Shown here: one piece after another, positions 3,889 to 36,260 of the stretch
How positions within the stretch are numbered: position 1 is the first letter of the stretch
Layout of the letters: the number at the start of each line of letters is the position of its first letter
DNA from: Henricia sp. BOLD:AAB3569
Lineage: Eukaryota; Echinodermata; Asteroidea; Spinulosida; Echinasteridae
Length of the DNA: 64,000 bases
Direction: 5' to 3'
Assembly (NCBI GenBank): GCA_037783545.1
Contig: JBBELK010000218.1
Coordinates: 620,001 to 684,000, forward strand
Notes under the pieces: generated by a model
The model's input: only the letters and a program-made list of their open reading frames with translations
Told to the model about the DNA's origin: nothing
Databases searched by the model: none
Made by a program: the position numbers and the translations under genes

Positions 3889-4736
3889 CAGTGTTGTAGT
3901 CGAGTCACCAATATCGAGTCCGAGTCTCGAGTCATTAGCCTCAAGTCCGAGTCCGAGTCTCGAGTCATTAGCCTCGAGTCCGAGTCCGAGTCTCGAGTCA
4001 TTAGCCTCGAGTCCGAGTCCGAGTCTCGAGTCATTAGCCTCGAGTCCGAGTCACGAGTCACTTGTTTGCCAAAATGAAATTGAATCTGCTATAGTTTCGT
4101 ACACACAATATGTTAGATAACTATTTTTCCCGTATTAGGACGACCGTTTTGGGTAGAGTGCTTACAGAGACCACTAAAACCACAAAATTGTCGGAAAGAA
4201 ACTCATGAATTGACACCCATTTTCTCGACCTAATTCTCTGAAAAAATGGTTTGCGACCTAGACGAAAATGGTTTGTGACCTAATAAAAATGGTTAAGAAC
4301 CTAATAAAAATGGTTTTTGACCTAATAAAGATGGTTTTTGAAGCACTTGGCGTTAGGACGACCGGCTATCGGTCGCCCTAATGCGGTCGGTCGTCCTAAT
4401 ACGCCGTTTTTACCCATAACCGGTCGACCTAAACGCGAAAGAGTAAGTTGTGAAATTATGACGTGCTCATGCGCTCCTTGCCGGCCTGGTGGGGCAGTGT
4501 ACATATTCACGCATTGTACTGTGCTTTTTCCTCCAAGAATCCCGCATTAAGGGCGTAATTATATATATATTTTATTTTTTTGGGAAATATGTGACTCGAG
4601 TCGCGAGTCACCATGTCCGAGTCCGAGTCATCATGGTCGAGTCCGAGTCTGAGTCATTTACCAATGTGACTCGACTCGAGTCGAATCCGAGTCACAAAAA
4701 ATGTGACTTGAGTCAGACTCGAGTCCTACAACACTG
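3889..4736. mobile_element. hAT-like non-autonomous transposon with perfect 8-bp target duplication
   Basis: Starts CAGTGTTGTAG and ends CTACAACACTG, an 11-bp perfect TIR followed by GTCGAGTC-like bases on both sides. The flanking octamer CAATGCAA is identical at 3881-3888 and 4737-4744. CA(G)NG termini and an 8-bp duplication are the hAT signature. The 848-bp interior has no transposase. It contains GAGTC-rich minisatellites near both ends and an inner 16-bp inverted repeat (CGTATTAGGACGACCG at 4131-4146, complement at 4388-4403) that may mark a nested or shared core. Confidence 0.8.
3899..4065. repeat. Minisatellite of GAGTC-rich units inside the hAT-like element
   Basis: About four units of roughly 36 bp built from CGAGTCCGAGTCTCGAGTCATTAGCC-like sequence (quoted in part). 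A related but irregular GAGTC cluster occupies 4592-4726 at the other end. The open frames here translate to Ser-Glu-rich or Ser-Pro-rich repeats and are artefacts. Confidence 0.85.
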
Positions 4737-8194: not shown

Positions 8195-8345
8195 TGTGCC
8201 TCATATCTCAGCTGGTAGAGCATCTGCCCGACATATTAAAGGTCTCTGGTTTGATTGTTGATAAGGACTAGGCCTGTAATTGTTTGTCATTTTTTTCATT
8301 TCCATAATGATTAGGCACTACACCAAATATTGTGCTTACTAATTT
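8195..8345 (+). mobile_element. tRNA-derived SINE
   Basis: The head is TGTGCCTCATATCTCAGC followed by TGGTAGAGCATCTGCC, a tRNA 5' half with a recognisable A-box. The B-box is decayed (GGTTTGATTGT). The tail has TAGGCACTACACCAAATATTG, which recurs near 61342-61362, close to the related tRNA-like head at 61062-61134. Confidence 0.6.
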
Positions 8346-16400: not shown

Positions 16401-17865
16401 CACTGACTCGGGTTTTGAGAACATCTCAGAATCTGGGATCAAATCAACATATTTGTAAAATTGTTGCTATAATACTTATAATAGCTTACTGAAAAAGCAG
16501 AATTTCTTATGTCTCAAATTTTAGGAGGCAAAAAAGGGCAATTGTGTCTTCTTTAAACCAGAAACTATGATGAAGAATTTGTAACAAGGGTCCTTGTCTT
16601 TTCAGTGAAATGGAAAAAAACACTCGCTTCAAGGTGTGAAGATTGAAAAATATTATGAACAACCAATTTATGGACACTGTCAAGCAAGAGCACCATTGCG
16701 AAGCAAATTAAAAGTTCAAAAGTACCTGCAGAAATACAAGTTCATGGAACTACATGTGTGGTGATTCGAGCAAAAAAAAACCTTCTTCACAAAGAAGTTT
16801 TATTTTTTGTGTGTGTAAAGGAAGGAAAAGAAACCAGTAAATTTTCAATAGAGTCACCTTAAGGGTCTGCTTATTTCTAATCAGGCAAATCGGACTAATT
16901 TAATCTCAAAATCCAGGGGTAATTGTTCACTCTGCCGGCCACCTGCAGTCTCTGGCACATTCCAATACACAGAGGGGTTGAACCTTTATTAGCTTTTGTT
17001 CTGCCCTTGACACGTGCCGCATATTGTTCATTTAGTTGTCGAGCACGCGACCACTGAGTTATCACGCTTCCTTGCCCCGGCAGACTTTTTTGGAAAAAAT
17101 GAAATGGTTCTCTGGGTTTTTGTCTCTCTTTTGTTAGTAGGTTTCTATTCAGCATTTTTTTTTCTCAGTTTAATTTTTTTATTTTTTATTTTTTCTCTTG
17201 AGCAAATAGGCCTAGGTGTTTCCCAGGGTGGGATTTTTACCCAATTCGTCGGATGGAAGTTACGACTTTGGTGCCAGTGTATTGAATAGCTTTTGACCAA
17301 TAAGAGGGAGGCTATTTATCAGCACGAGACTACTTGTCTTTAGCCTGTGGGAGAAAAATCATTGTGCAGAATTGTGCAGAGCCTGAAGATATCTATGTAT
17401 TGTGGTTGGATATACACAGCTGTGCTTAGGAATGTAGGCTGTTTCAAGCGGGGACATAACCCTGCACTTTACTGCCAAAATGTGGGCGGTGCTGCAAGCT
17501 GGCTGTAGGGCATATATGAATTTATATTACAAATTTGGGGAGTGTGTTCAGCAGCTTGTTTGTCCAGCCCCTTTTATTCCAGTAAAAGAACATTAAAATT
17601 TCGTCCCAGGGGCTGTTACAGATTTTTTTAAAGGAAGAATGGGTGTACAAGGAATAGAGGGTGTAGGGGGCACAAAACCTGCTGGGAGTGCACTGCATAC
17701 ATTAGGACATAATATGTAGTTTTTTATTTGCCATCTTTTCGGGGTGAGGGTGGGTGGGATGCAGGGCAGGGGTGGGCACAGTATAGTCTGCTAAGGGACT
17801 GTTTTAATTTTGTTCAATTGAATACAAAGAAAATGTGACTAGAAGTTGATTGCATTTAATTATTA
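16401..17865. other. Intergenic DNA
   Basis: T-rich stretch at 17155-17190. No gene or element recognised. Confidence 0.5.
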
Positions 17866-17930
17866 GGATTTGCAACCGGGATCTCTGGACCAGTACAGTA
17901 CATGTACCAACTGAGCTACATCCACCCATA
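17866..17930 (-). mobile_element. tRNA-like (SINE head) sequence, probable seed of the adjacent satellite
   Basis: On the minus strand: GGTGGATGTAGCTCAGTTGG (A-box TAGCTCAGTTGG) and, 30-40 bases on, CCCGGTTGCAAATCC, a weakened B-box. The acceptor and T stems do not fold properly, so it is not a functional tRNA. Its 5' half is the sequence reiterated in the array at 17963-19733. Confidence 0.5.
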
Positions 17931-17962
17931 CACTTTCATTCATTTTTACTTAGCTATCTACC

Positions 17963-19733
17963 CATTACTAACTGAGCTATCCTCCCCCACCAACTGAGCT
18001 ATCCACCCCCACCAACTGAGCTATCCACCCCCACCAACTGAGCTATCCACCCCTACCAACTGAGCTATATATATATCCACCCCTACCAACTGAGCTATCC
18101 ACCCTACCAACTGAGCTATCCACCCCACCAACTGAGCTATCCACCCCTACCAACTGAGCTATCCACCCCTACCAACTGAGCTATCCACCCCTACCAACTG
18201 AGCTATCCACCCCTACCAACTGAGCTATCCACCCCTACTAGTTGAGCTATCCACCCCTACCAACTGAGCTATCCACCCCACCAACTGAGCTATCCACCCC
18301 TACCAACTGAGCTATCCACCCCCTACCCAACTGAGCTATCCACCCTCACCAACTGAGCTATCCACCCCTACCAACTGAGCTATCCACCCCTACTAACTGA
18401 GCTATCCACCCTCACCAACTGAGCTATCCACCCCTACCAACTGAGCTATCCACCCCTACCAACTGAGCTATCCACCCCACCAAATGAGCTATATCCACCC
18501 CTACCAACTGAGCTAACCACCCCACCAACTGAGCTATATCCACTCCTACCAATTGAGCTATCAACCCCTACCAACTGAGCTATCCACCCCACCAACTGAG
18601 CTATCCACCCCACCAACTGAGCTATCCACCCCACCAACTGAGCTATCCACCCCACCAACTGAGCTATCCACCCCCACCAACTGAGCTATCCACCCCTACC
18701 AACTGAGCTATCAACCCCTACCAACTGAGCTATCCACCCCTACTAGTTGAGCTATCCACCCCTACCAACTGAGCTATCCACCCCACCAACTGAGCAATAC
18801 CACCCCTACCAATTAACTGAGCTATCCACCCCACCAACTGAGCTATCCACCCCACCAACTGAGCTATCAACCCCTACCAACTGAGCTATCAACCCCTACC
18901 AACTGAGCTATCAACCCCTACCAACTGAGCTATCAACCCCTACCAACTGAGCTATCCACCCCTACGAACTGAGCTATCCACCCCTACCAACTGAGCTATC
19001 CACCCCTACTAGTTGAGCTATCCACCCCTACCAACTGAGCTATCCACCCCACCAAATGAGCTATATCCACCCCTACCAACTGAGCTATCCACCCCACCAA
19101 CTGAGCTATATCCACTCCTACCAATTGAGCTATCAACCCCTACCAACTGAGCTATCCACCCCTACCAACTGAGCTATCAACCCCTACCAACTGAGCTATC
19201 AACCCCTACCAACTGAGCTATCAACCCCTACCAACTGAGCTATCCACCCCACCAACTGAGCTATCCACGCCCACCAACTGAGCTATCAACCCATACCAAC
19301 TGAGCTATCCACCCCACCAACTGAGCTATCCACCCCACTAAATGAGCTATATCCACCCCTACCAACTGAGCTATCCACCCCTACCAACTGAGCTATCAAC
19401 CCCTACCAACTGAGCTATCAACCCCTACCAACTGAGCTATCCACCCCACCAACTGAGCTATCCACCCCACCAACTGAGCTATCCACCCCACCAACTGAGC
19501 TATCCACCCCTACCAACTGAGCTATCAACCCCTACCAACTGAGCTATCCACACCCTACCAACTGAGCTATCCACCCCTACCAACTGAGCTATCCACCCCT
19601 ACCAACTGAGCTATCCACCCCCTACCCAACTGAGCTATCCACCCTCACCAACTGAGCTATCCACCCCTACCAACTGAGCTATCCACCCCTACTAACTGAG
19701 CTATCCACCCCCACCAACTGAGCTATCCACCCT
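17963..19733 (-). repeat. Satellite of tRNA A-box units (22-23 bp, roughly 80 copies)
   Basis: Head-to-tail array, plus-strand unit CCACCCCTACCAACTGAGCTAT. On the minus strand each unit reads TAGCTCAGTTGG, an exact match to the pol III A-box consensus TRGCNNAGYNGG. Unit variants (CAACCCC, TACTAGTTGAG, CCAAATGAGCTATAT) recur in blocks, showing segmental amplification. No B-box lies inside the array. The minus-strand open frame at 18446-18658 is only the repeat translated. Confidence 0.95.
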
Positions 19734-31657: not shown

Positions 31658-31800
31658 CGGCTAGCTCGGTGGTCGAGTGGTTAAGACGTCTGCCTTGTTT
31701 GCAGGAGGTCGTGTGTTCGAGTCCCTCCTGAGCACGCTATGAAGTTTTTCATAGTGTCTCGGGAAGGCACTGAGTATACAGTGTTAATAAATACGTCGGG
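31658..31800 (+). mobile_element. tRNA-derived SINE
   Basis: The head contains GCTAGCTCGGTGGTCGAGTG (A-box region), TCTGCCTTGTTTGCAGG (anticodon-arm-like, TGT in the loop) and GTGTTCGAGTCCCTCC (B-box). The acceptor stem does not close, so this is a SINE rather than a tRNA gene. The tail, TCGGGAAGGCACTGAGTATA, follows. Confidence 0.6.
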
Positions 31801-36023: not shown

Positions 36024-36260
36024 CCACAGTGCAATGGTGAAGCGGTCCAGTGAATCAACTTTGGTTGGTTCTAAAGGTTGTGGGTTCAAAGTCCGGTCCA
36101 GTCCGGTCTGGTCCAATCCAGTCCGGTCTGGTCCAATCCAGTCCGGTCTGGTCCAATCCAGTCCGGTCTGGTCCAATCCAGTCTGGTCCGGTCCAGTCCA
36201 TCCATGGTACGTGTACCTTGAGCAAGGCACTTTGCCACACATTGCTTCTCTCCACCTAGG
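36024..36260 (+). mobile_element. tRNA-derived SINE carrying an internal minisatellite
   Basis: Head with GGTTGTGGGTTCAAAGTCC (B-box-like), then a 20-bp tandem repeat, then the SINE core CCTTGAGCAAGGCACTTTGCC shared with 3300-3385 and 40391-40545. The minisatellite arose just after the B-box. Confidence 0.55.
36091..36200 (+). repeat. 20-bp minisatellite, about five units
   Basis: Unit GTCCGGTCTGGTCCAATCCA, near-perfect. It produces overlapping repetitive open frames on both strands that are not genes. Confidence 0.9.

Follow-up and report, generated by a model that had tools for sequence, protein, structure and literature searches.

The window (the whole 64,000-nucleotide stretch of DNA analyzed here) contains a minus-strand array of short tandem units, most of which carry an exact A-box of the Pol III promoter. 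Judged from the sequence comparisons below, this array is probably a tRNA-derived minisatellite that arose through a 46-nt deletion in a 68-bp array and then grew by slippage or exchange, and that is unstable and has no dedicated function. The features on which the argument rests are the following.

17866..17930, minus strand: tRNA-like head, a full-length but diverged relative of the 68-bp unit, located on the 3' side of the array as read on this strand (alignment)
17866..17877, minus strand: B-box-like stretch in the head, GGTTGCAAATCC, 12 nt long where the consensus has 11 nt
17907..17918, minus strand: A-box of the head, TAGCTCAGTTGG (motif search)
17935..17979, minus strand: degenerate edge units TAGCTCAGTTAGTAATGGGTAGA and TAGCTAAGTAAAAATGAATGAA between head and array (unit parsing)
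17948..19732, minus strand: tandem array, consensus unit TAGCTCAGTTGGTAGGGGTGGA (Tandem Repeats Finder and unit parsing; 81 units, two of them degenerate and located at the edge with the lower coordinates)
18280..18411, minus strand: 132-bp segment with an exact second copy at 19579-19710, an internal block duplication (exact-repeat comparison)
C155:2247150-2248650 (L059) and C219:630700-631800 (L074): 68-bp tRNA-Ala-like arrays (flank match)

Structure of the array

Tandem Repeats Finder described the array at 17948-19732 as period 22 with 80.7 copies and 89% matches, and unit parsing resolved it into 81 head-to-tail units, its limits extending to about 17935-19732 once the degenerate edge unit is counted. 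Minisatellites or VNTRs form single arrays whose head-to-tail units span roughly 10-60 bp, and the window array agrees with them in arrangement and period. Unit lengths were 22 bp (n = 50), 21 bp (20), 24 bp (7), 23 bp (2), 27 bp (1) and 30 bp (1). The exact A-box 12-mer TAGCTCAGTTGG was present on the minus strand in 66 of the 81 units and, in a second assembled copy of the locus on contig C99, in 84 of 107, both unit totals taking in two degenerate edge units. Counted on both strands of the window, TAGCTCAGTTGGTA with at most two mismatches occurred 79 times; shuffled sequence gave a mean of 0.38, and 0 of 100 shuffles reached 79, which rules out a chance origin of the run of A-boxes. Thus, the satellite of about 80 A-box units proposed in a first-pass annotation is borne out, whereas the units, given there as 22-23 bp, are rather 21-22 bp long and the statement that each one holds an exact A-box was too strong.

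No B-box was found in the 22-bp window array within two substitutions of the strict consensus GGTTCRANTCC, and the array accordingly does not have the organization of a type II Pol III promoter, in which an A-box is followed by a B-box at a spacing of 31-93 bp in the yeast data reported in PMC11724288. ARAGORN called no tRNA in the array or the head, Rfam called none at its gathering threshold, and a permissive Rfam scan of the array stretch (L012) did not find a tRNA either. A coding role of the array is ruled out by the stop codons seen within the unit; Pfam gave no match for eight open frames located between 12541 and 26901. Further tandem repeats of the window lie at 3915-4059 (33-bp unit, CGAGTC-rich), 36097-36200 (20-bp, GGTCC-rich) and 1190-1403 (22-bp, TTCGTGCGCACGAAAT-rich).

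Origin of the 22-bp unit

The 22-bp consensus is identical at 22 of 22 positions to the junction of two units of a 68-bp array at C155:2247444-2248337 (L059; 14.8 copies, 95% matches; unit TAGCTCAGTTGGTAGAGCACTTGTATGGCAAACCAGAGGTCTCGGGTTCAAATCAACATAGGGGTGGA), compared with 16 positions for the best of 300 shuffled 68-mers. Put differently, taking 46 nt out of the 68-bp tandem unit, with TAG at each breakpoint, yields the 22-bp unit, and the B-box lies in the part taken out. The complete match holds in four equivalent registers, indicating a 3-nt TAG microhomology at the 46-nt deletion. The ten letters before the A-box in the C155 array are TAGGGGTGGA at 6 of 15 A-boxes and TAGGGCTGGA at 5 of 15. 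Of the proposal that a 5' segment of a tRNA or SINE had been amplified, derivation from a tRNA and tandem amplification therefore stand; the unit itself, spanning the 68-bp junction minus 46 nt, does not correspond to a simple 5' segment.

The probable 68-bp parent is a tRNA-Ala-like unit that has tRNA-like relatives dispersed in the genome. The last unit of a short sister array (L061) is a tRNA-Ala(ggc) according to ARAGORN and scores 50.9 bits as an Rfam tRNA, and the Rfam tRNA matches in the C155 array itself lie under the gathering score (best 26.9 against 29). An array with a 75-bp unit on C164 (L058) gave eleven-odd weak tRNA matches, one of them above the gathering score (32 bits). A dimer of the 22-bp consensus agrees with this 75-bp unit at 24 of 25 letters, nearly as good a match, so the exact parent inside the family is uncertain. 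When the 740.7-Mb assembly (2104 contigs) was searched with the 21 letters around the A-box of the head, GTAGCTCAGTTGGTACATGTA, at up to three mismatches, 93 matches were obtained against 13 for the reversed control; among the stretches fetched at 20 places from this match list, several proved to be tRNA-like copies standing alone, in some cases with a B-box, and several others lay inside tandem arrays. In addition, two exact A-boxes 38-68 bp apart occurred at 282 places (control 0), 121 of which are accounted for by the two assembled 22-bp arrays; the 68-bp array on C155 was among the remaining places listed.

Head beside the array

The A-box and the B-box-like stretch of the head are 29 bp apart. 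Outside the A-box, the 3' part of the head aligned with the 68-bp unit at a score that 0 of 2000 shuffles reached, with typed and extracted letters alike. Weaker alignments were obtained with a dispersed SINE-like copy typed from L024 (score reached by 13 of 2000 shuffles) and with the tRNA-Ala-like unit of L061 (36 of 2000), and the 3' part of the 75-bp unit did not align with that of the head (921 of 2000). Since the 68-bp unit matches both the 22-bp consensus and the head, the array and the head are most likely members of one tRNA-Ala-like family.

The head had been annotated as a complete tRNA-like element with the same 5' half as the array units. It is indeed tRNA-like and carries the same A-box, but it is not a complete tRNA: besides the absence of ARAGORN and Rfam calls and the 12-nt length of the B-box-like stretch, a permissive Rfam scan of 17780-18120 detected no tRNA and the RNA fold of the head was no better than that of shuffled sequence (141 of 200 shuffles folded at least as well). 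The tRNA searches and the fold comparison rule out a tRNA gene in the array or the head. A 101-bp query holding the head was found only in the two assembled copies of the locus, identical in both, and a 27-mer from the head likewise matched only these copies at up to three substitutions; the idea that the head belongs to an abundant SINE of almost the same sequence is thereby rejected, within a search that passes over very common words. The tRNA-Thr of the window was likewise rejected as a relative of the head. This tRNA-Thr-like gene lies at 31663-31735 on the plus strand (ARAGORN anticodon tgt; Rfam 38.6 bits). Dispersed tRNA-like heads with TAKCTCAGCTGRTAGAGCATCTGCC occur in the window at 8204 (plus strand) and 61113 (minus strand), the second with a perfect B-box.

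One locus, assembled in two copies of different length

Pairs of exact A-boxes 5-30 bp apart matched 121 times genome-wide (control 0), 53 times in the window and 68 times in the stretch fetched from C99, placing such pairs at one locus that is assembled twice. A 40-mer of two units gave 71 matches at up to two mismatches, all on C99 and C218; both searches depend on exact or near-exact units, and a diverged array elsewhere would escape them. C99 is colinear with the window from end to end in pieces of at least 300 bp at 87-99% identity, interrupted by gaps and accompanied by a few off-diagonal matches between repeats. Colinearity also holds for 6 of 7 pieces of a stretch lying some 600 kb left of the window. 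From this colinearity, we infer that C99 represents the other haplotype, the two assembled copies apparently being alleles. A 149-bp satellite, about 97-99% alike, occupies some 10 kb of C218:1580001-1589930 and some 23 kb of C99:3330165-3353345 (fetched stretches L028-L033) and is a candidate for a major or centromeric satellite; its presence at matching parts of the two contigs is consistent with colinearity, unique alignment being impossible within it.

Between the same flanks, the array measures 1,786 bp (81 units) in the window and 2,377 bp (107 units) on C99, a difference of 26 units. The two copies of the locus are several per cent apart, with 97.79% identity in the left 2-kb flank and 94.9% in a 1.1-kb piece of the right flank from 19741; the array thus changes faster than its surroundings. 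Copy number therefore varies between colinear flanks as in a VNTR, with allelic status inferred and lengths taken from an assembly. Within the C99 array, 712 bp match exactly when the sequence is offset by 672 bp, which corresponds to 30 units copied in tandem, a length reached by 0 of 300 unit-order shuffles, whereas the longest repeated unit string of the window array comprises 5 units and was reached by 12 of 300. An exact 100-bp stretch also recurs in the window array, besides the 132-bp segment listed above. The difference in length and the shifted 712-bp match support slippage or unequal exchange, in agreement with the first-pass annotation.

Other tRNA-like tandem families

A search of the genome for similar arrays, which had been advised, placed exact or near-exact 22-bp units at the one locus only; it did reveal tRNA-like tandem families with units of 68, 75 and 76-80 bp. 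The 68-bp junction pattern (up to two mismatches) matched at 162 places genome-wide (control 0). The 100 of these that were listed fall on eight contigs (C155, C171, C205, C219, C266, C308, C387 and C882) and are often 68 bp apart; with listed junctions on 8 of 2104 contigs, the 68-bp satellite may be restricted to one chromosome or region. None of the 100 lies on C218 or C99, and thus no intermediate array was seen at the locus among them. Comparison of the flanks of ten fetched stretches identified two haplotype-like pairs of matching loci, L059/L074 (C155/C219; 14.8 and 5.8 copies) and L077/L078 (C387/C205; 6.3 and 6.3 copies). The unequal first pair adds to the evidence for turnover in this kind of repeat, and the equal copy number of the second counts against it. 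The L059 array is flanked by two coding-like stretches, one matching EF-Tu domain 2 and EF-G domain 2 in Pfam and the other without a Pfam match. We take both to be parts of a mitochondrial EF-G-like gene, and the position of the array between them indicates that the 68-bp array of L059/L074 is probably located within an intron of that gene. An intron-bearing EF-G-like gene, together with the genome size and overall appearance, suggests an animal, probably other than a squamate. The third family, with a unit of 76-80 bp, is represented by ten fetched arrays (L062-L071).

B-boxes that fit the strict consensus are rare in the fetched arrays of these families. None of the 15 units of the C155 68-bp array has a strict B-box (13 are one base off), and the same is true of the 12 units of the C164 75-bp array. 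A 65-bp relative of the 68-bp array (L060) has it in 3 of 10 units, and the ten 76-80-bp arrays in 1 of 61, GGTCTTGGGGAAAACC or a similar sequence replacing it elsewhere. That one unit is the last of L069, and in L061 too the last unit has a strict B-box. Overall, a strict B-box in most units was found in 0 of 19 fetched arrays with at least four A-boxes (L058-L060, L062-L071 and L073-L078), whereas it was present in 6 of 13 single copies (L038-L042, L044-L050 and L056), whose B-box state was judged from the sequence letters (Fisher p = 0.002, which overstates the difference because units are shared by descent, two pairs of loci match and all places were selected by A-box). This count leaves out the window and C99 arrays, L043, L051-L055 and L057 (tandem, 321 bp fetched) and L061, L072 and L079 (two or three A-boxes). 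One could tentatively suppose, although we find it rather doubtful, that tRNA-derived heads in this genome repeatedly become satellites, and do so after damage to or loss of the B-box, as though an intact Pol III promoter prevented tandem expansion or was selected against in it, the 22-bp array with A-boxes only being the extreme of the series. In the 68-bp family most units retain a B-box that differs from the strict consensus by a single base, which argues against this hypothesis.

Alternative explanations

Amplification of a 5' tRNA or SINE fragment directly, with no 68-bp intermediate and with the 68-bp arrays as an independent amplification of the same family, would fit both the A-box region common to single dispersed tRNA-like copies and the absence of the 68-bp junction from C218 and C99 among the 100 places listed of 162. 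We consider this origin unlikely, since the leader GGGGTGGA is joined to TAG exactly as a deletion within a tandem 68-bp unit predicts (22/22) and the leader TAGGGGTGGA already precedes 6 of 15 A-boxes in the C155 array. That misassembly created the array length and the 672-bp duplication is conceivable inasmuch as the lengths come from one assembly and the 672-bp repeat is exact, yet the array has the same flanks on both contigs, and its two copies agree at their ends and differ in unit order through much of their length, leaving such an artefact very improbable.

The remaining alternatives assign a function to the array, and the pattern of change among its units bears on them. Among 29 distinct unit types, substitutions in the A-box did not differ significantly from those in the rest of the unit (12/348 against 17/290 sites, p = 0.18). 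Positions 1-7 of the unit (TAGCTCA) were nearly invariant (1/203 against 28/435 sites, p = 0.0003), and with indels included the changes lay mostly outside the A-box (17/348 against 54/290, p = 5e-8). The invariant positions and the indel-poor A-box could hint at constraint, in tests that are post hoc, use units that are not independent and have TAGCTCA as the parsing anchor; the indels are located in runs of G and in TA repeats, which are prone to slippage. Such constraint, together with the exact A-box kept in 66 of 81 units, would favor the idea, raised in the first-pass annotation, of TFIIIC binding or an ETC-like insulator, here in a form in which many weak A-boxes act jointly, and a second A-box-like motif drew some tauA in the yeast work of PMC11724288. 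The same source, however, gives nanomolar TFIIIC affinity for the B-box and micromolar affinity for the A-box, reports that binding was almost abolished on DNA with only an A-box and that a pseudo-A-box was no substitute for a real one, and ETC sites are described in PMC12409998 as B-box sites. With no B-box within two substitutions, the array would be a poor TFIIIC target, and the assembled copies differ by 26 units; the TFIIIC or ETC idea is therefore unsupported and, in our estimate, highly unlikely. Scarcely more probable is a live Pol III unit at 17866-17930 with the array as its upstream modifier, supplying extra A-boxes or spacing sites. The head does combine a perfect A-box with a B-box-like stretch, and the 101 bp that include it are identical in both assembled copies, but the B-box is imperfect, no tRNA is called, the fold is no better than that of shuffles and the gap of 29 bp is under the 31-93 bp described for yeast (PMC11724288). 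Moreover, a single recognisable A-box of the array, and an imperfect one, is found no more than 93 bp from the B-box-like stretch, at a distance of 90 bp, the next being 112 bp away.

Discussion

The explanation that we favor, a tRNA-derived minisatellite, would involve the following steps. A tRNA-Ala-like sequence occurs as a 68-bp head-to-tail repeat, with an A-box and a near-B-box, at many places in the genome. In a small 68-bp array, slippage or a deletion at the TAG microhomology may then have produced the 22-bp unit, a loss of 46 nt that would remove the anticodon and the part of the T-arm with the B-box. Expansion of this unit presumably followed through slippage during replication, together with unequal exchange or gene conversion, and the resulting array would persist as an unstable, nearly neutral repeat with no dedicated function. 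The locus thus offers a traceable case of the possible birth of a short minisatellite, from tRNA-like sequence to 68-bp unit, microhomology deletion, 22-bp unit and unequal growth. In addition, the arrays of this genome with and without B-boxes provide a natural test of whether the integrity of the Pol III promoter limits tandem expansion. Our literature search found no report of an array with only A-boxes derived from a tRNA, which is a weak negative.

Several known systems share part of this organization. In the squamate SINE-derived satellites (sSats), as presented in PMC10702118, a portion of a tRNA-related element likewise gave rise to the tandem units, one end has a longer terminal unit and copy number differs at some orthologous loci; here, the head at 17866-17930, whose similarity to the 68-bp unit extends past the A-box, forms such an extended terminal unit. 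However, the sSat unit is about 70-290 nt rather than 22 nt and occurs at many loci rather than one, and the parent in our case is itself a tandem repeat, with no SINE body or LINE-derived tail identified. Because 22 nt is far under 70-290 nt and no SINE body was identified, we do not file the array as an sSat of the squamate type. The amphibian families PolIII/TAN, OAX, Rana/polIII and Hy/polIII, as cited in PMC10702118, are also tandem tRNA-like sequences, and Hy/polIII reportedly lacks box B; unlike the window array, with its 22-nt unit, single locus and traced parent unit, they have units of about 200-360 nt where given, and Rana/polIII makes up as much as 10% of its genome. The tandem tRNA arrangements of Entamoeba histolytica mentioned in PMC2888827 resemble the array in having tRNA-like units in tandem, but there tRNA genes are repeated, whereas ARAGORN and Rfam call none here. 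ETC sites share with the array a Pol III promoter motif without a gene, but those characterized in PMC12409998 hold B-boxes; with only A-boxes found, the array is not, by its sequence, an ETC site. Finally, the Alu-derived minisatellites and the mouse B1 VNTR listed in PMC9659126 have a short tandem unit born in a SINE-like element and variable length. Although the source here is a tRNA-Ala-like tandem unit and the repeated units bear an A-box or near-A-box, the window array, by this analogy, appears to work like a SINE-born minisatellite.
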